In this document: one piece after another, positions 4,741 through 28,700 of the stretch
Position numbering within the stretch: position 1 is the stretch's first letter
Layout: every line of letters begins with the position of its first letter
From: a candidate division WWE3 bacterium CG_4_9_14_0_2_um_filter_35_11
GTDB taxonomy: Bacteria > Patescibacteriota > WWE3 > 2-01-FULL-39-13
Direction of reading: 5' to 3'
Assembly (NCBI GenBank): GCA_002789015.1
Contig: PFSJ01000026.1
Location: forward strand, 1-50,295
DNA length: 50,295 nt
The notes under the pieces: model-generated
The model's database searches: none
Told to the model about the DNA's origin: nothing
Seen by the model: only the letters and a program-made list of their open reading frames with translations
Program-made: the position numbers and the translations under genes

Positions 4741-5451
4741 ATGAAAGCAATTATAAAAGGCTTTTCTACCCTGATTTTAGCTATCGTCATGTTGGGTGTA
4801 TTTTCTAGTACATCATACGCAAAGCAAATTTGTACCACTCAATATGGTGGAGGAGAAACCTGTATAAATATTGCAGATAATCCAGATCTTGAAATTGATA
4901 AAACAATCTACAATCCAAAAAGTGGTGAGTATGAAAGTGATATCAAATCAAGCGGTGGATCATATCCATACATATTTGAATCAAGTGACAAAATTAAATT
5001 TAGAATAACTGTTAAAAATGTTGGAGATATAGAAATCAAAGACATTAATGCTTACGATGCATTGCCAGCATTTTTAGTATATGACAGTGGAGATGGAGAT
5101 GACAGAAAAGACGGCAAAGAAGTCAAATTTGAAATTGGCGACTTAAAACCAGATGAAAAAAAGAGCTTTACATTTAAAGCTAAAATCGAGAACGACGGAA
5201 TTTCACCAAAAAGTGACAAAATTTGTTTGTCAAATTTTGTCACTGCAAAAGGTAAAAGAGCTGATGATCTTAAAAAATCAGAAGACACTGCAGACTCTGC
5301 AAACTTTTGTATAACTTTAGGCAAAGTTTTAGGAACTTCTAAAGCTAAAATTGCAAAGCTTCCTACAACTGGTGGCGAAAATGTTTTCGCACTTGGTTTA
5401 TCAATTGGACTTGTATTAGTAGGATACGGAATCAAAAAACTTTCTGACTAA
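4741..5451 (+). CDS. Secreted DUF11-like surface protein with LPTTG sortase signal
   Basis: A 236-aa exported protein. Residues 1-27 are a classic signal peptide (Lys-rich start, hydrophobic core, cut near SYAK). Residues about 45-165 form a DUF11/CARDB-like immunoglobulin fold with the phrase FRITVKNVGDIEIKDI and an acidic GDGDDRKDGK loop that may bind metal. Four Cys in the mature part could form disulfides. The C-terminus has LPTTGG, then a hydrophobic helix (ALGLSIGLVLVGYGI) and a KK tail, which is a full sortase anchoring signal. The protein is probably fixed to the cell wall. No sortase gene is in the window. The 3' end overlaps convergent prmC by 20 bp. Confidence 0.8.
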   Translation: MKAIIKGFSTLILAIVMLGVFSSTSYAKQICTTQYGGGETCINIADNPDLEIDKTIYNPKSGEYESDIKSSGGSYPYIFESSDKIKFRITVKNVGDIEIKDINAYDALPAFLVYDSGDGDDRKDGKEVKFEIGDLKPDEKKSFTFKAKIENDGISPKSDKICLSNFVTAKGKRADDLKKSEDTADSANFCITLGKVLGTSKAKIAKLPTTGGENVFALGLSIGLVLVGYGIKKLSD

Positions 5452-11050: not shown

Positions 11051-11466
11051 ATGATTACGATTTCTACATCTTTAAATGATTTTAGGTTTTTGTCTGCTCC
11101 GTAGAAATATTTGCATTTTTCAACCTTGGCGGTTGCCAAATGTATTGAGTCCGGAGATCGATAATTATACCTTGCTCGAATTTCAGAAGCACCGATCAAT
11201 ATTTCTTTAGAAATATTGATAAGCTTTAAGCTTGGCATGTAATCCTCTATGTTTTTATATAAATTTAGTATCTTGTTGTTTCTTTCCTTATTTGGCAAAA
11301 CTAATAATTCCAAGTACAACAATTCGCTACTTATAAGCTGTATATTTTTATCTATTGATTCTTCAAATATGGATTCGACCTTACTGGTGTATTTAGGATT
11401 GTTTTCAAAGTAATATATAAATAGGTTTGTGTCTATATAGATTTTTGAATTTGCTACTAATTCCAC
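11047..11466 (-). CDS. PIN-domain toxin (VapC-like), second pair
   Basis: A 139-aa PIN domain: YIDTNLFIYYFE holds the first Asp, SSELLYLELL the conserved Glu, SPDSIHLATA the third acidic residue, and YFYGADKNLKSF the last Asp. This is a Mg-dependent RNase toxin by family. It overlaps the AbrB-type antitoxin gene upstream by 10 bp. The sequence differs clearly from the PIN proteins at 1072 and 22747, so the three pairs are separate acquisitions rather than recent duplicates. Confidence 0.85.
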   Translation of the reverse strand: MELVANSKIYIDTNLFIYYFENNPKYTSKVESIFEESIDKNIQLISSELLYLELLVLPNKERNNKILNLYKNIEDYMPSLKLINISKEILIGASEIRARYNYRSPDSIHLATAKVEKCKYFYGADKNLKSFKDVEIVII

Positions 11467-19745: not shown

Positions 19746-21071
19746 ATGAATATTTTTCCTGAATTTAAAAATAAAAAAATTGTTATTTGGGGTTTTGGAA
19801 TTCATGGAAATGGTCCAGCCGCCGTAAAGTTTTTTTCCCAAAATAGCGCGAATATTTTAGTAACAGATTTAAAAACCAAGGCAGAGCTTACTGATTCACT
19901 AAATGGGATTAAAGATATTCCAAATGTCGAATATGTTTTAGGTGAGCATAGGGAATCTGATTTTATAAATGCAGATATGGTTTTTAGATCTCCTGCAATT
20001 CCAAAAGAGGTTCCACTTTTTAAGTTTATTAAAGATTATGAAATTGAAATACAAATGGCCGAGGGTTTCTTTTTAAAATATTCCAAAACAAAAAATGTTA
20101 TTGGAGTAACTGGTACAAAAGGAAAAACGACGACTTCGACTTTATTGACTGAAGTTATTAGAGATCAAGGTTTGAATGTTTATCAAGCTGGAACTCCTGG
20201 AAATTCCGCGATGGATTTAGTTACAAAAGTAACGCCTACAGATTGGGTTGTTTTGGAAATTTCAAGTTGGGATTGTGAAGGTTTGGATGAGAATAAAGTT
20301 TCTCCGCATGTCGGAATTATTACAAATATTTCACATGATCATCTAAATCGTTATGCGTCGTATAAAGATTATGCAATGTCAAAAGTTTCGATTTTTAAAT
20401 ATCAAAATTTAGATGATTTTTTTGTGACAATTAAAGACGGCGAATTTACAAAAGATTTTTTGGATATTTCTAAATCGAAGAATATTTTGATTGATACAAA
20501 TTCGCAAGAATATGATTTTTCTAGCGCTCATTTAAAAGGTGAACACAATGTTAGAAATATGGCATTGTGCTTTGAGGTTGCAAAGGTTTTAGGTTTTGAT
20601 TTGCAAAAAACCAAAAAGGCGATTTTGAATTTTAGAGGAGTTCCTTATAGGCAAGAAGAACTTGGTGAAATTAATGGCGTTTTGTTTGTAAATGATTCGG
20701 CGGCGACCGCTCCTGTCGCCGCAATATCAGGTATTAAAACTTATTTAGATAAAAGCCCAGTTGTGATTTTAGGTGGAGCAGATAAAAAACTAGATTATTC
20801 GGGTTTAGTAAATTATGTTTTAGAGACAAAAGTTGATTATCTTCTTTTGAAGGGCACCGCAACGGATATTTACGTGAATTTAGGACTTGATGCAAGTAAG
20901 GTTTATGATGATTTTGAAACTGCAATTAGATGTGCATTTAATATCGCAAAAAATAAAAATGGTGTTGTTTTGCTTTCACCTGGGACTGCTAGTTTTGGAA
21001 TGTTTAAAAATGAGTTTGATCGTGGAGATAAGTTTAATTTGATTTTTAATGAACTGAAGAATGAAAATTGA
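19746..21071 (+). CDS. murD: UDP-N-acetylmuramoylalanine--D-glutamate ligase MurD
   Basis: A 441-aa ligase that adds D-Glu to UDP-MurNAc-L-Ala. Domain 1 starts IVIWGFGIHGNGPAAVKF. Domain 2 has the P-loop GVTGTKGKTTTS, LEISSWDCEGL, TNISHDHLNRYAS and the Lys (YAMSKVSIF) that is carbamylated in the family. Domain 3 has VNDSAATAPVAA and a final LLSPGTASFGMFKNEFDRGDKF, where the model-bacterial NDSKATN is changed. I choose ATG 19746: TATAAT (19732-19737) ends 8 nt before it, inside the end of murC, so an internal promoter is possible. A TTG at 19740 would also fit the frame. Confidence 0.92.
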   Translation: MNIFPEFKNKKIVIWGFGIHGNGPAAVKFFSQNSANILVTDLKTKAELTDSLNGIKDIPNVEYVLGEHRESDFINADMVFRSPAIPKEVPLFKFIKDYEIEIQMAEGFFLKYSKTKNVIGVTGTKGKTTTSTLLTEVIRDQGLNVYQAGTPGNSAMDLVTKVTPTDWVVLEISSWDCEGLDENKVSPHVGIITNISHDHLNRYASYKDYAMSKVSIFKYQNLDDFFVTIKDGEFTKDFLDISKSKNILIDTNSQEYDFSSAHLKGEHNVRNMALCFEVAKVLGFDLQKTKKAILNFRGVPYRQEELGEINGVLFVNDSAATAPVAAISGIKTYLDKSPVVILGGADKKLDYSGLVNYVLETKVDYLLLKGTATDIYVNLGLDASKVYDDFETAIRCAFNIAKNKNGVVLLSPGTASFGMFKNEFDRGDKFNLIFNELKNEN

Positions 21072-22449
21072 AGTAAACGGAAATTCTTATGAAGTTAACG
21101 AAATACGTACTGATTCGAGGAAAGTGCAAAAAGGAGATTTGTTTATCGCTTATAAAGGCGTTAAGGTTGATGGCCATGATTACATAAATCAAGCAATTGA
21201 AAACGGAGCGAATGTCATAGTTTACGATGAGGGTAGCCCTTCTTCGAAAAGGGCTACCCTCATAAAAGTTGAGAACTCCCGCGAAATTTGGGCGAACCTT
21301 ATGTCCCAAAAGTATGACAATCCTCAAAAGAATTTAAAGTTCATAGGAATTACAGGCACAGATGGCAAAACAACAACCTCAAATTTTATTTATGAAATAT
21401 TAAAAGGCGCTGGCAAAAAGGTTGGAATAATTTCTACAGTTTCTGCTAAATATGGTGATATTGAGATTTCAACTGGACTTCACACAACTTCACCAGGTCC
21501 TGATGTTTTGTTTAAAATTCTTTCTGAAATGGTTGACGACAATGTCGAATATGTTGTTTTAGAAGTTACTTCTCATGCATTAATTCATAAAAGATTTTTT
21601 GGAATTCATTTTGAGGTTTGTGGTGTTACAAACGTTACTCCAGAGCATCTTGATGCTCATGGTAGTTATGAACAGTTAATAAAAGATAAGGCACTCTTAT
21701 TTGAAGCTTCAAATGTAATTACTTTAAATAAAAGTGGAACTGGGATTTCTGAAATTTCTAAATATGCAAAGAAAGAAATAATTTATAGCAGTCCTGATGA
21801 TGAATTTGTTTCGTCGCTCGGAGATTTTTTCAAAGGAATTTTTCCAGGTGAATATAATTTACAAAACGCTGCTTTAGCAGTTGAGATTTCAAAAAAGCTT
21901 GGAGTTGACTCTGCGGTTGCTATTATGGCTGTTTTAAATGCAACTCCACCAAAAGGAAGATTTCATCGTATAAAAAATCCTTTTGGCATAAATGTAATTG
22001 TTGATTTTGCTCATACTGAAAATGCTATGCGGAAAGTTTTGTCAGCCGTTTGTGAAATGAAAAAGCCAAATGAAAAATTAATTACTGTTTTTGGATGTGC
22101 GGGAGAAAGGGATTTTTATAAAAGACCAAATATGGGAAAGTCTTCTTCAGAACTTTCAGACATAGTAATTCTGACTGCAGAAGACCCACGTTCTGAAGAC
22201 GCTAATGAAATTATTAAACAAATTATAAACGGAAATCCATCCTACGAATTTATCGTTGAAGCTGATAGGCACAATGCAATTTATAAGGCAATCGAAATGG
22301 CAAAAAAAGGCGACTGGGTTTTGATTTTAGGAAAAGGCCATGAAGAATCTATGAATATAAGTGGGACCGAATATCCATGGTCTGACATAAAAGAGGCCAA
22401 AAGCTTTTTCTTTAAAAAGCGTAATGACGGTGATACACTTTTGTCATGA
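21061..22449 (+). CDS. murE: UDP-MurNAc-tripeptide synthetase MurE
   Basis: A 462-aa ligase that adds the third amino acid (a diamino acid) to UDP-MurNAc-L-Ala-D-Glu. Motifs are IRTDSRKVQKGDLFIAYKG, the P-loop GITGTDGKTTTS, the substrate segment HTTSPGPDVL, VLEVTSHAL, and VDFAHTENAMRKVL. The pocket that selects the diamino acid reads DPRSED, where mDAP enzymes have DNPR, so the third residue cannot be safely assigned; Lys is possible. The gene overlaps murD by 11 bp and the antitoxin gene by 4 bp. It contains a perfect 15-bp hairpin at 21227-21263. Confidence 0.92.
   Translation: MKIEVNGNSYEVNEIRTDSRKVQKGDLFIAYKGVKVDGHDYINQAIENGANVIVYDEGSPSSKRATLIKVENSREIWANLMSQKYDNPQKNLKFIGITGTDGKTTTSNFIYEILKGAGKKVGIISTVSAKYGDIEISTGLHTTSPGPDVLFKILSEMVDDNVEYVVLEVTSHALIHKRFFGIHFEVCGVTNVTPEHLDAHGSYEQLIKDKALLFEASNVITLNKSGTGISEISKYAKKEIIYSSPDDEFVSSLGDFFKGIFPGEYNLQNAALAVEISKKLGVDSAVAIMAVLNATPPKGRFHRIKNPFGINVIVDFAHTENAMRKVLSAVCEMKKPNEKLITVFGCAGERDFYKRPNMGKSSSELSDIVILTAEDPRSEDANEIIKQIINGNPSYEFIVEADRHNAIYKAIEMAKKGDWVLILGKGHEESMNISGTEYPWSDIKEAKSFFFKKRNDGDTLLS
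21227..21263. repeat. Perfect 15-bp hairpin inside murE
   Basis: Arms 21227-21241 and 21249-21263 (ATGAGGGTAGCCCTT and its exact complement) with a 7-nt loop. It codes for the surface loop DEGSPSSKRATL between two strands of the N-terminal domain. The same 12-base string agggtagccctt occurs in the hairpin just after rpsG. Confidence 0.9.
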
Positions 22450-22754
22450 CAAGAACGCCTAAAGAGAAAAAATTAAATAATGCTAACGGGTTTTATGTTC
22501 GTGACGAACCACTTACGATTTATAAAAGTGGCAACAGCAAAGTTGTAACTATTCCTGCTGAATTTCCTTTTGAAATCGGGGACGTTTTAAATGTTTCATA
22601 TGAAGGGGAGTCTATTAAGATGGTGAAGAGGGTTAAAGTTAAAGACGATTCAGCTCAAAGTGAACTTGCTAAACTTCAAAAAAAATATGCTGGGAATTTT
22701 GGAAACATGTCAATTGATGAACTCGAAGAATTTTTAGAGGGTATATATGAATGA
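22446..22754 (+). CDS. AbrB-type antitoxin inside the mur operon
   Basis: A 102-aa protein. After a basic start, residues about 20-62 form an AbrB/MazE-type DNA-binding domain (PLTIYKSGNSKVVTIPAEFPFEIGD). The acidic tail (MSIDELEEFLEGIYE) is typical of the toxin-binding part of VapB-like antitoxins. The ATG lies in the murE stop (ATGA at 22446), and the end overlaps the PIN toxin gene by 8 bp. It has no promoter of its own that I can see, so it is probably made from the mur transcript. Confidence 0.82.
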   Translation: MTRTPKEKKLNNANGFYVRDEPLTIYKSGNSKVVTIPAEFPFEIGDVLNVSYEGESIKMVKRVKVKDDSAQSELAKLQKKYAGNFGNMSIDELEEFLEGIYE

Positions 22755-23163
22755 GGATAGAATCTTTATAGATACAAACGTTTTTATAAGTGTATTTAAT
22801 CTCGATTCTACATTTTTTAAACAGGCCTCAAATTTGATTAATATGCTTGATACTAAAAATAAAATTGGAATTGTTACTCCTTATGTCATTAACGAAGCCC
22901 ATTACTTTTTCTTAAGAAAGCATGGTCAAGAAATTGCATTCAGACTTTGTAAAGATATTTTGAAAATGAAGCGGATAGCATTAATTGATTTAGAATTGAT
23001 CTCAACTGACGTGATTGATATCCTTAGCTTGGCAAAAAAATATAATCTTAAAACATTCGATTCCTATCACGCATATTACTGCAAAAAGCTAGGCATTAAA
23101 AAAATCGCAACATTCGATAGTGACTTTAAAAAAATAAAATGGTTGAAGGTGGTTGGATCGTAA
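22747..23163 (+). CDS. PIN-domain toxin inside the mur operon (VapC-like)
   Basis: A 138-aa PIN RNase: FIDTNVFISVF with the first Asp, TPYVINEAHYF with the Glu, TFDSYHAYYCKKL with the third acidic residue and IATFDSDFKKI with the last. Family members cleave tRNA or rRNA. The gene overlaps its antitoxin by 8 bp and ends 11 nt before the likely murF start, with no room for a terminator. Together with its antitoxin it sits between two essential cell-wall genes. Confidence 0.85.
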   Translation: MNEDRIFIDTNVFISVFNLDSTFFKQASNLINMLDTKNKIGIVTPYVINEAHYFFLRKHGQEIAFRLCKDILKMKRIALIDLELISTDVIDILSLAKKYNLKTFDSYHAYYCKKLGIKKIATFDSDFKKIKWLKVVGS

Positions 23164-23174
23164 TATCTAACAAA

Positions 23175-24449
23175 ATGAAAAATAAATTAAACGATTATCG
23201 CCGTGTGTCTATAGATTCTCGTCTTGTAAAGCCCGGTGATTATTTTGTCCCAGTTGTCGGTGAGACTTCCAATGGCCATGATTATATTGATTCGGCAATT
23301 AAAAACGGTGCTGTAGGTGTAATCGAAGAACAAGAGTTGTATGAAATTGCTTCCGAGAAACTTGCAATTATTAATCCCAAAGTTATTGCGATTACCGGTT
23401 CGGTTGGGAAAACGACAATGCGAAATTTTCTTTCAACTATTCTTTCTGAAAAATATAAGGTTTGTGTTGGCTCATTAAATACGAAGCTAGGGCTTGCTGT
23501 AAATATTGTGAACAGCCTTAAGGATACCGACGAAGTATTTGTTGCCGAAGCAGGCATGGACCGTGCTGGTGAGCTTTTGGAAACAGGTAATTTTATAAAA
23601 CCAGAATATGCAGTAATAACAAATATAAGTCAAAGCCATATGGCAAAACTCGGTTCTTTAGAAGCTATTAAACGCGCAAAAGCTGAACTACTTGAAACGA
23701 TAACCTTAGGAGGGAAAGCTTTTTTAAATTGGGATTCAGAAAATGTTCGCGATATTATTGGCTTTGTGCCAGAAAATGTTGAAATAATAAAGTATTCATT
23801 AGAAAACTTGGAAAGCGAAATCGATTTGAAAAATCTTAAACTTAATTTTATAGTAGGACCTAATTATTTAAACGCAATTGGAGCGATCTTAATATGCATG
23901 AAACTTGGTTTATCAGTCGAAGAAACTATAGGAGGATTAGAAAAAATAAAACCAGAAAAAGGTCGTTTGAATATTTTAAAAGGAATTAACAACTCCACTA
24001 TCATTGATGATACATACAATGCATCACCTGTTTCGATGATTGCAGGTATAAAAGCTACTTCTGATTATTATTCAAAATCTAATTTAAATGGTAGAAAAAT
24101 TGCAGTGATTGGTGGGATGCTTGAGCTTGGATTATACGAAGATGAAGGACATAAAGTTAGCGGAGAAGAGATTTTGAAAGAAGGTTTCTCTGAGGTTGTT
24201 TTAGTAGGTGAGTTGGCGAAAAAGTATTGTATAAAAGATACTCCTGGAGTCATTGTCTTTGCGTGCCTTGATGTTGTATCTGCGATAGAAATTATTAAAA
24301 ATAAAATAAAGCCAAAGGAAGGTGATATTATTCTTGTAAAGGCTTCGCAAGGAATCCGTTTAGAAAAAGTTGTAAAAGAGATTTTGCTTGATACGTCTTT
24401 AGCCCAGAGTCTATTAGTTCGCCAGGATGAAAGGTGGAACTCCAAATGA
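23175..24449 (+). CDS. murF: UDP-MurNAc-tripeptide--D-Ala-D-Ala ligase MurF
   Basis: A 424-aa ligase that adds D-Ala-D-Ala to the UDP-MurNAc-tripeptide. It has VSIDSRLVKPGDYFVPVVGE, the P-loop AITGSVGKTTM, EAGMDRAGELLE, TNISQSHM, and the C-terminal IIDDTYNASPVSM, VIGGMLELG and LVKASQGIRLE motifs typical of MurF. TAATAT (23161-23166) ends 8 nt before ATG 23175, so I prefer this start to ATG 23139 inside the toxin gene. This also suggests an internal promoter that would keep murF expressed independently of the TA pair. The stop overlaps mraY (ATGA). Confidence 0.92.
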   Translation: MKNKLNDYRRVSIDSRLVKPGDYFVPVVGETSNGHDYIDSAIKNGAVGVIEEQELYEIASEKLAIINPKVIAITGSVGKTTMRNFLSTILSEKYKVCVGSLNTKLGLAVNIVNSLKDTDEVFVAEAGMDRAGELLETGNFIKPEYAVITNISQSHMAKLGSLEAIKRAKAELLETITLGGKAFLNWDSENVRDIIGFVPENVEIIKYSLENLESEIDLKNLKLNFIVGPNYLNAIGAILICMKLGLSVEETIGGLEKIKPEKGRLNILKGINNSTIIDDTYNASPVSMIAGIKATSDYYSKSNLNGRKIAVIGGMLELGLYEDEGHKVSGEEILKEGFSEVVLVGELAKKYCIKDTPGVIVFACLDVVSAIEIIKNKIKPKEGDIILVKASQGIRLEKVVKEILLDTSLAQSLLVRQDERWNSK

Positions 24450-25549
24450 TTGATTATGTTCTTACAATTTTAGCTTCGTTTTTTTTGAGTTTTGCAATTA
24501 CTCTTCCATTTATAAATCTTTTGTATAAGTTTAATATCAGGCGTATTTCTAAACTTGATTTAGAAAAGCTTCTTCCAGGGCGAACAATTAAAATGGGAAC
24601 TCCTGTTATGGGGGGGGCTGTAATAATCTTTTCCACAATCGTGGTGTCGCTTTTTCTTTTGAATGATTGGAATTATTTGCCAATGATTATTTTGGTTTTA
24701 ATTTTTGGCGCAATTTTTGGTGGAATTGATGAATATGTAAATACCTTAGGCAGAACTTTTTTGGCGTTAAGGATAAGCCAAAGCACAGATAAAGTTGTTA
24801 GAAGCTTTTTCCCAACAAATGGAATTTTCAATCACATAAAAAAAACTTTGCTTGTTCCCTGGAAACTTTTTGAAGAAACCTTAAGAATCATGGGCGGGGA
24901 ACAGCGTGGCCTTAAAAATCATTATAAATTCTTAATGTATTTATCTGTTGCGATTATTCCGATTATTTATATGGAAGCAAATTCTCATGTTACATCGCTT
25001 TATCTTCCATATCTTGGATCATTTGAGCTTGGGTATTTCTACTATATCTTCCTAGCATTTTTGCTTTTTGGATTTGGAACAGCTTTAGGCATAACTGATG
25101 GTATGGATGGACTTTCCGCGGGAACTCACTCTGTTGCCTTTTTGTGCTATGGAATTTTAGCCAGCTACCTTGGTTATACTGAAGTTGCAACGCTTTCATT
25201 TATATTGCTTGGAACTGAACTCGCGTTTTTATATTTCAACATTAATCCCGCAAGGTTTGAAATGTCCGATGTCGGAACATTGCCAATTGGTATGGTAATG
25301 GTTCTAATTGCTTCTTTAATTCATAGAGAGGCCACATTACTTCTGATCGGAGGTGTTTTTGTGATTGAAATACTCTCGAGTGTTTCTCAACAGTTGGCTG
25401 TGAGATTTTTCAAAAAAAGACTATTTCTTGTTGCGCCAATTCATCATCACTTTGAAAAACTTGGATGGCCGGAAACAAAGGTGACTATGAGGTTTTGGAT
25501 AATTAGTATTATATTGGGTTTATTAGGCCTTGCACTTGGTTTATCTTAA
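24446..25549 (+). CDS. mraY: Phospho-N-acetylmuramoyl-pentapeptide transferase MraY
   Basis: A 367-aa polytopic enzyme of about ten helices that moves phospho-MurNAc-pentapeptide to undecaprenyl phosphate, giving lipid I. The family signatures are present but drifted. The first acidic motif, usually DD, reads G-G-I-D95-E96-Y-V-N. The second is ITDGMDGLSAG, the third SDVGTLPIG, and the APIHHHFEKLGWPETKVTMRFW segment is intact. A run of eight G codes for M-G-G-A near residue 55. I use ATG 24446, which overlaps the murF stop, not the ATG four codons upstream. No murG or ftsW follows here. Confidence 0.9.
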   Translation: MIDYVLTILASFFLSFAITLPFINLLYKFNIRRISKLDLEKLLPGRTIKMGTPVMGGAVIIFSTIVVSLFLLNDWNYLPMIILVLIFGAIFGGIDEYVNTLGRTFLALRISQSTDKVVRSFFPTNGIFNHIKKTLLVPWKLFEETLRIMGGEQRGLKNHYKFLMYLSVAIIPIIYMEANSHVTSLYLPYLGSFELGYFYYIFLAFLLFGFGTALGITDGMDGLSAGTHSVAFLCYGILASYLGYTEVATLSFILLGTELAFLYFNINPARFEMSDVGTLPIGMVMVLIASLIHREATLLLIGGVFVIEILSSVSQQLAVRFFKKRLFLVAPIHHHFEKLGWPETKVTMRFWIISIILGLLGLALGLS

Positions 25550-25623
25550 GGCCTGGTGCTTGCTCTTACGTTTATGATAAGGTAGAATCTCTCGCATAGC
25601 CAAAAAATTGCGTATTTTGTGTA

Positions 25624-25652
25624 TTGCACTAATAGAATCAATTTGTTATATT
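25624..25652 (+). promoter_or_regulatory. Promoter of the rpoB-rpoC-rpsL-rpsG operon
   Basis: TTGCAC (25624-25629), a 17-nt spacer and TATATT (25647-25652). Transcription would start near 25659, leaving a leader of about 64 nt. AAGGA at 25708-25712 lies 10 nt before the rpoB ATG and is a usable ribosome binding site. Confidence 0.65.
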
Positions 25653-25722
25653 TGCACTCGCGAAGAGAGGGTTTGCTTGTTTACTTGCATTAATATTCGG
25701 ATTTAATAAGGAAAACACTTTA

Positions 25723-28700
25723 ATGAGAATTGCTTTCTCAAAACAAAACATAGAATTCCCCCTGCCGAATCCAATAGAGGTTCAACTTAATTCATTCAAT
25801 TGGCTGATTGGTCAAGGCGTGAAGGAAACTCTAGAAGAAGTTGGCGACATACATGATAACACCGGACGTGGGTGGGTTCTTTCATTTTCAGACCCAAGAA
25901 TTGATAAACCAAACAGAACTCCGGAAGAAGCTAAGTCAATGGGCCTTACTTATGACGCTCCATGGTATATAACAGCAACCATTTCTAAAATTGGGACAAA
26001 ACAAGAAAAAAGAAAAGAAATCTACATGGGCGATTTTCCAATGATGACTGATGATGGAATTTTCGTTTCTAATGGTGTTTCAAAAGTTATTATTAATCAG
26101 CTGTCTAGGTCACAAGGTGTGTTTTTCGGCATCGACATTGATCCTATTACAGGTTTAAGACTTCCGAATGCAAAGATTTTGCCTAAAACAGGTGTTTGGA
26201 TTGATTTTGAAACGAGCAAATATGGGGTTATGTATGTCAGGATTGATAGAAAGCGAAAAATAGCAGCAACAACTTTGTTAAGAGTTTTTGGTTTAGAAAC
26301 AGATAAAGACATTCTTAATGTTTTTAGCGATTACGTCGAAGAGCCGATAGGCTCTTTCATATCAAAAACTCTCGAAAAAGATGTTACAACAAACTACGAA
26401 GAAGCCGTACTGGAAATTTATAAAAAAATGAGACCAGGCGAGCCTGTTGTTTTGGAAGGTGCAAAATCCTTGGTTGATAATATGTTCTTTAATTTAAGAA
26501 GATATAGTCTTGGAGATGTCGGAAGATTCAAACTTAACATGAAACTTAAGGTTGACACCCCAAATGAAGAAAAATATTTTGGGTTGCAGCAATCAGATAT
26601 TGTCGAAATTATAAAATACCTAATTCATTTAGCTAAAAAAGACGAAGGATATGCAGATGATGATATTGATAGTCTTTCAAATAGAAGATTAAGATCTGTT
26701 GGCGAATTGATTCAAGCTGAAATGAGATACGGATTTTATCAATTAGAAAGACTAGCTCGTGAAAAAATGGCTTTACAACCAAGGGAAGTTTTGCCAGATC
26801 CTTCTGTCTTAATTTCTCCAAGACCAGTTTCGGCAAGAATAGTTTCGTTTTTGTCTTCTGGCCAACTTTCACAACTTTTAGGTGAATATAATCCTTTGGA
26901 TTCCTTAGATCATAAAAGAAGGCTTAGCGTTATGGGCAAAGGTGGACTTACGAAGGAAAGAGCAAGTTATGCAGTTAGAGACGCTCATCCAACTCACTAT
27001 GGAAAAATTGATGCTATCAGGAGTCCTGAAGGTCAGAATATTGGTCTTGTTACCTATCTAGCACTATATGCCAAAGTAAACAAATATGGATTTATAGAAA
27101 CTCCATATGCAAAATTAACGAAAGATAAATCTGGAATGATGAAGGTAACTTCACAGGTTGATTATCTCGCGGCTTATGATGAAGAACACACAAACATAAT
27201 CGGTGGTGACGTTATTGTAGATGAAAATGGTTTTATTTCCGAAAAACGTGTCCCAATTAGACGTGGTTTAGATTTCTTTATTGGGTTTGCAACTGATGCA
27301 GAATATATTGAAGTCGCACCTCAACAAATACTGGGAGTTTCAACAGGTCTTATTCCATTTATTGGAAATAATGATGTTGCTCGTGCTTTAATTACGGCTC
27401 AACAATCATCTCAGGCCGTTCCTTTAGTAAAAGCAGAAGAACCTATAATAGGAACAGGACTTGAAGGTTACATCGCTGATCAAGCTGGACTTACTGTTCG
27501 TGCAGAAGAAGATGGTGTTGCTGAATACGTAGATTCAAACAAAATAATTATCAAAGAAGGTCGTAAATCTCATGAATATAAGTTGGTGAAGTTTTCTCAA
27601 TCAAATATGGATTCGAGTTATTCTCAAAATCCAGTTGTAAATGTTGGCACAAAAATTAAAAAGGGCGACTTATTGGCCGAGGGTCCTTCATCTAGTAATG
27701 GAGAATTAGCACTTGGAACAAATCTTAGAGTTGCATATATGAGTTATGATGGATTCAACTACGAAGACGCTTTTATTTTATCTGATCGTGTAGTTAAAGA
27801 AGACGTCTTGTCTTCAATAAATATATCTGATTATACGATTCAGGTTATGGATACAAAGCTTGGTCCTGAAGAATTAACAAATGATATTCCTAATGTTTCA
27901 GAAGATTCTTTGAGGAATTTAGATACAGACGGTATTGTCATTATTGGTTCACAAGTTAAATCAGGCGATATTCTCGTAGGCAAAATTGCACCAAAAGGAC
28001 AGTCTGAACTTTCTGCTGAAGAAAGATTATTAAGAGCTGTTTTTGGTGAAAGAGTAAAAGAAGTAAAAGATAACTCATTAAGGTTGCCACATGGTAGATC
28101 AGGGGTTGTTATCGATGTAAAAGTCATGACTCCCCACGATAAAGAACAAATGTCAAAAGGTGTGTTAAGAGAAGTAAATGTTAAGGTTGCGGAATTTAGA
28201 AAAATCACAATTGGAGATAAACTTTCAAATAGGCACGGTCAAAAAGGAGTTATCGCAAAGATAGTTCCAGAAGCTGATATGCCATATTTGGCAGATGGAA
28301 CATCTGTTGATGTTATCGTTTCACCAGCTTCTATTCTTGGACGTATGAATATTGGAAACATTCTAGAATCACATCTAGGTTGGGTTGGTTACAAAACTGG
28401 AAATAAATACGCAATGCCTCCTTTTAGAAAAGTTGAAGTTGAAACAATTGCTGAGGAACTTAAAAAAGCTGGACTTCCAGAGTCTGGTAAAACAACATTA
28501 TTCGATGGACGAACTGGAGAGCCATTTGATCATGATGTGACTGTTGGTTCAATTTACATTTATAAATTGCATCATATGGCTGAAGAAAAAATTCATGCTA
28601 GATCAACAGGACCATATTCTTTGATTACTCAACAACCATTGGGTGGAAAGGCCCAATTTGGAGGCCAAAGGTTCGGGGAAATGGAAGTTTGGGCACTTGA

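Follow-up and report, generated by a model that had tools for sequence, protein, structure and literature searches.

A VapBC-type toxin-antitoxin pair inside the mur operon of a WWE3 bacterium, with a candidate promoter of its own in the end of murE

The interval between murE and murF

In the 750-kb genome of this WWE3 bacterium (Patescibacteria; hereafter G000), two small open reading frames lie between murE and murF, where the initial annotation had placed an antitoxin and a PIN toxin. The features of this part of the window, that is, of the whole stretch of 50,295 nucleotides that was analysed, are as follows:

21061-22449, plus strand: murE, UDP-MurNAc-tripeptide synthetase (TIGR01085, 404.9 bits; cut-off 257.3)
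22446-22754, plus strand: VapB-like antitoxin ORF of 102 aa, with an AbrB/MazE-type N-terminal domain
22732-22746, plus strand: ribosome-binding region of the toxin gene (GAGGG), inside the LEGIYE codons of the antitoxin
22747-23163, plus strand: VapC-like PIN-domain toxin ORF of 138 aa
23175-24449, plus strand: murF (best match TIGR01143, 287.0 bits, just under the cut-off of 288.6; start taken from homology to the MurF of G002)
24434-25549, plus strand: mraY, 3' of murF in the same operon (TIGR00445, 182.5 bits; cut-off 192.05)

The stop codon of murE and the start codon of the antitoxin gene share four nucleotides (ATGA, 22446-22449), the antitoxin and PIN ORFs overlap by 8 nt, and 11 nt separate the PIN stop codon from the murF ATG at 23175; all three junctions are present as originally described. 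The GAGGG sequence is found at the same place in three WWE3 relatives that are considered below (G001, G002 and G006). The start of murF was set by homology, as the MurF of G002, a member of the same family, begins with MKNNIKVRLDSRL..., which aligns with MKNKLNDYRRVSIDSRL... in G000. A longer murF ORF starting at 23139 is without support, the same homology favouring 23175, and a truncation of MurF by insertion of the pair is ruled out, since the N-terminus of the G002 protein is equally short.

Profile searches also identified the MurD, MurC and MraY products near the pair. The two genes belong to a co-directional run with small gaps that comprises a DUF3048 gene (11792), secD, secF, murA, murB, murC, murD, murE, the pair, murF and mraY, with rpoB lying 173 nt beyond the mraY end. 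A terminator scan of positions 20500-25800 returned a single terminator-like site, inside mraY, and none between the PIN gene and murF. Given this shared direction and the lack of a terminator before murF, the pair is expected to be co-transcribed with the mur genes to some extent.

Identity of the toxin and the antitoxin

The toxin matches PF01850 above the cut-off (E 1.8e-16), and its acidic residues D9, E50, D105 and D124 are intact and invariant in seven homologues. The best fold match of its AlphaFold model (pLDDT 94.3) is VapC20 of M. tuberculosis (5wzf, E 5.1e-7), followed in Foldseek by VapC of Shigella, Rickettsia and Salmonella. The VapBC structures of the latter three share the PIN toxin fold seen here, although the VapC structural matches listed are only 12-21% identical to this toxin, and a PDB sequence search with the toxin family profile gave no match. 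The assignment to the VapBC type, already made in the initial annotation, is thus borne out by both the PIN family score and the VapC fold.

The antitoxin appears AbrB/MazE-like, weakly by profile: it reaches 18.8 bits against PF04014 (cut-off 24.7; E 0.0016), its family profile matches Haemophilus VapB1 (6nkl, E 0.002), and a GNS..TIP motif is invariant in seven homologues. Its predicted fold consists of four strands followed by two helices, in a poor model of low confidence. The curated defence models of PADLOC matched neither protein. Here and in all homologues of the class that were listed, the antitoxin gene lies upstream of the toxin gene and overlaps it. We infer that the two genes constitute a type II VapBC-like toxin-antitoxin (TA) cassette, in which the PIN protein would be toxic and its partner would neutralise it. 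Taken together, the locus is an otherwise ordinary VapBC-type pair inside a mur operon.

A candidate promoter and operator in the end of murE

The 3' end of murE holds two further elements:

22411-22439, plus strand: candidate sigma70-type promoter, TTTAAA (22411-22416), 17 nt, TACACT (22434-22439)
22424-22447: palindrome ATGAC-N14-GTCAT (arms 22424-22428 and 22443-22447), a candidate VapBC operator and the only such site in the window

Promoters were scored against TTGACA/TATAAT with a spacing of 16-18 nt, at 1-15 nt from the antitoxin ATG, in 30 TA loci of G000 and its congener G001 (the window, L025, L061-L069 and L071-L083). The scores peak only at 6 nt, with a mean of 7.8/12 as compared with 4.0-6.3 at the other distances and 5.6 for control ORFs at 6 nt, and in the majority of the TA loci of this genus a sigma70-like promoter occupies exactly this position. 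The -10 box of the candidate in murE likewise stands 6 nt from the ATG, and its matches to the consensus amount to 8 of 12 in G000 and 7 of 12 in G001. A -10 box so close to the ATG would yield a leaderless antitoxin mRNA, which may be a common tendency in the genus.

Homologous pairs outside the mur operon show the register TTGACA-17-TATAAT-6-ATG with 12 of 12 matches in G006 and G011 and 11 of 12 in G012 and G028. Along the sec-mur-rpoBC run, no other gene start exceeds 7/12 in the TA register. Scores of at least 8 in the exact register occur at about 0.2-0.3% of all ATGs in the window, and the composition-based P of reaching at least 8 in one fixed register is ~0.009. The site before the mur pair is therefore weaker than those of its free-standing relatives, yet above what is usually expected by chance. 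The lower scores (8 and 7 against 11-12 of 12) may also indicate that the site has decayed and that the pair depends on the operon after all.

The palindrome is centred on the -10 box, reaches into the antitoxin ATG and lies inside the 3' end of murE. It recurs in G001 at the corresponding position and also precedes the pair of G002, a relative from another genus, where the DNA is non-coding; the G006 pair has the variant ATGAC-N14-GTAAT. Positions -22 to -1 of the murE tail agree with the non-coding DNA of G002 at 15 of 22 positions in G000 (shuffle P 6e-5) and at 17 of 22 in G001, a value that none of 200,000 shuffles reached. Additionally, the MurE tail NDGDTLLS extends past most MurE homologues of the class, and the last murE codons (about 22417-22449) overlap the candidate TA promoter and the palindrome. 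The simplest account would be that the cassette brought its own control DNA and that murE now reads through it. A test of whether silent sites in the last murE codons are under additional constraint was not significant and was dropped; all seven codons are identical, but 5% of windows are as extreme.

In light of these features, the claim of the initial annotation that the pair lacks a separate promoter is probably wrong, as the register typical of the genus is occupied in the murE end and the palindrome is common to relatives. The TAATAT box to which the same annotation had assigned an insulating role does exist 8 nt before murF (23161-23166), but its reading as an insulating promoter does not hold: there is no -35 partner at 16-18 nt, the box includes the PIN stop codon, and murF scores 3/12 in the TA register.

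A comparable arrangement is known from vapBC-1 of nontypeable Haemophilus influenzae, where an AbrB-like antitoxin also comes first and an inverted repeat also lies at the antitoxin translation start; there, the complex leaves a footprint on this repeat, no more than 50 bases from the vapB-1 ATG (PMC3302801). Compared with VapBC systems that have a SpoVT/AbrB-type VapB, the pair described here differs in that its antitoxin mRNA is predicted to be leaderless and its candidate promoter/operator shares DNA with the 3' end of an essential gene.

Conservation of the pair after murE

A metagenome-assembled WWE3 genome of the same genus, G001 (CALRDH010000001.1; MurE 81% identical), carries the pair at the identical site after murE, with both the ATGA and the 8-nt overlaps kept. 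Between the two genomes, dN/dS is 0.115 for the PIN toxin, 0.194 for the antitoxin and 0.116 for murE, and dS is 1.26, 1.05 and 0.96, respectively. The toxin is thus under purifying selection much as murE is, and the dS of the pair resembles that of its neighbours. A recent insertion in one strain is ruled out by the shared site and by these dS values. Judged from the two genomes, the pair at the murE site is as old as the split between the two species and has been kept as protein. The initial annotation had proposed to compare the murE-murF content of related genomes, taking conservation as a sign of function; by that reasoning, the pair found at the same site in G001 would be functional.

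Eight of the 15 PIN pairs of G000, the mur pair among them, have a syntenic orthologue in G001. The persistence of the pair had also been explained by parasitism of an essential transcript. The seven syntenic PIN pairs outside the mur operon are kept equally well, however, and retention can therefore be understood without any need for such parasitism.

Similarity between the toxin genes of G000 (22747-23163) and G001 (L025:8448-8864) is uneven, with 88% nucleotide identity in the 3' half and 65% in the 5' half. This contrast could reflect recombination within the gene.

Relatives of the pair and the variability of its surroundings

In G001, the pair is followed downstream by genes for an alpha/beta-hydrolase and a divergent Mur ligase (30% to murF) and then, on the opposite strand, by alanine racemase and D-Ala-D-Ala ligase genes before mraY is reached (replaced segment, L025:3988-8438). 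Since murF was replaced while the pair stayed, the pair has outlived a change of its downstream neighbour and is not bound to a particular downstream gene.

An NlpC/P60-like gene follows murE in G002 and G003 (L026:6138-6917 and L027:5091-5840), lying between murE and murF in G002. This gene is absent altogether from G000 and G001, and G003 has no pair. Across this family, the content of the murE-murF interval thus seems to be variable.

Close relatives of the pair occur in seven of the 45 genomes of the class. The G002 pair is located between secF and murA, and its toxin is 44% identical to that of G000. The G006 pair follows atpC, adjoins a phage-integrase-family gene and is enclosed by two 39-nt direct repeats that contain a hairpin (L029:4543-4581 and 5320-5358). 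The core of these repeats occurs nowhere else in the G006 genome and has no copies in six relatives, which rules them out as a general mark of the cassette. The pairs of G011 and G012 adjoin membrane and glycoside-hydrolase-like genes, and that of G028 occupies another site. The WWE3 pairs of G002, G006, G011 and G012 resemble the mur pair in toxin sequence (41-46% identity), in the LEGxY tail of the antitoxin and in promoter register; they differ from it in being at other sites and, except for G002, in having a promoter of their own near consensus. Carriage by phages or plasmids was considered and set aside, as no relative of the pair was found in phages, plasmids or IMG/VR.

In a protein tree of seven taxa (UFBoot 78-97), the G002 pair does not group with the mur pair of G000 and G001, whereas the promoter DNA groups them. 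As regards a common mur-operon origin of these pairs, the protein tree speaks against it and the promoter DNA for it.

Origin and expression of the pair

The findings presented here allow a model in which the end of murE received a VapBC cassette complete with promoter and operator, and in which the cassette is now transcribed from two sources, the operon and this promoter. We regard this model as reasonably probable. The cassette, carrying a promoter and a palindromic operator, would have come to the 3' end of murE in an ancestor of the WWE3 genus; its control DNA would now also encode the last MurE residues, with the murE stop overlapping the antitoxin start at ATGA. The first gene would encode an antitoxin of the AbrB/MazE fold, expected to bind its own control DNA as well as the toxin, and the second a PIN-fold ribonuclease toxin. 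The pair could be read by two routes: from a long sec-mur transcript, with translation of the antitoxin by reinitiation at the ATGA, and from a promoter of its own that probably gives a leaderless mRNA and is repressed by the VapBC complex. In this regard, we infer both promoter activity and autoregulation of the mur pair from the arrangement of the DNA, and the pair seems to have a promoter of its own hidden in the murE end.

In an alternative account, the promoter has been lost and the mur transcript is the sole source of expression of the pair; the toxin would then be released when cell-wall gene expression drops. The overlaps, the 11 nt to murF and the lack of a terminator are consistent with this, as is the promoter-like site, which falls short of those in the free-standing relatives. 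However, no other gene start of the operon scores as high as this site in the TA register, and G000 and G001 both have the complete palindrome; we consider exclusive expression from the mur transcript unlikely. The premise on which a coupling of the toxin to mur expression had been suggested, namely that the pair has no promoter of its own, is weakened accordingly. Even less probable, in our opinion, is that VapBC, when bound to the palindrome inside murE, blocks murF and mraY or boosts them once released, so that the state of the TA system would set cell-wall precursor synthesis. The palindrome does lie upstream of both genes with no terminator in between, and the pair has been retained at the site; in G001, though, the pair stayed when murF gave way to the hydrolase and divergent ligase genes described above. 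If true, this would be the interesting outcome, with a TA autoregulatory circuit acting as an internal regulator of a cell-wall operon.

A third account concerns the benefit of the pair and is compatible with the mechanism that we favour, namely, that of a cassette arriving with its own promoter. The pair could be a selfish hitch-hiker without a cellular role, a mobile cassette that reached an operon site by chance and is kept because its deletion is costly (addiction). Related pairs at unrelated sites (after atpC in G006, before murA in G002, and those of G011 and G012) and the absence of the pair from most of the class point in this direction, but long retention with a dN/dS of about 0.12 fits a useful role equally, and we hold the selfish account to be a serious possibility, somewhat short of an even chance. 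That the ORFs are chance non-genes or the product of an assembly join can be practically dismissed: the weak family score of the antitoxin, and nothing else, would favour it, whereas the two genes recur at this site in the independently assembled genome of another species, G001, and purifying selection is evident at the codon level.

Should the promoter/operator inside murE work, a single stretch of DNA would encode the last part of an essential protein and at the same time control a TA pair, and one could examine there whether TA autoregulation reaches cell-wall genes. Should it fail, the locus would still illustrate cleanly how an essential operon can take in a TA pair. Among the papers that we searched for TA pairs in mur or dcw operons, or for VapBC of CPR bacteria, none offered a direct precedent. 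YlmD/YlmE of the Streptomyces dcw cluster, a two-part system called reminiscent of toxin-antitoxin systems by its authors (PMC5943314), resembles the mur pair in having two parts and in lying near cell-division genes; the proteins are different, however, and are not described as VapBC.

Bacteria and archaea with small genomes have been hypothesised to be largely devoid of defence-type systems, TA included (PMC12455944). By contrast, the genus studied here carries about 15 PIN pairs in less than 1 Mb. G000 has 16 PIN-domain matches, one of them a 329-aa protein, and 15 have a small ORF just upstream; besides the mur pair, two lie in the window on the minus strand (11074-11442 and 1102-1470) and 13 are at other places in G000. 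G001 also has 16 such matches, whereas 0-4 is the usual number in the remaining genomes of the class.
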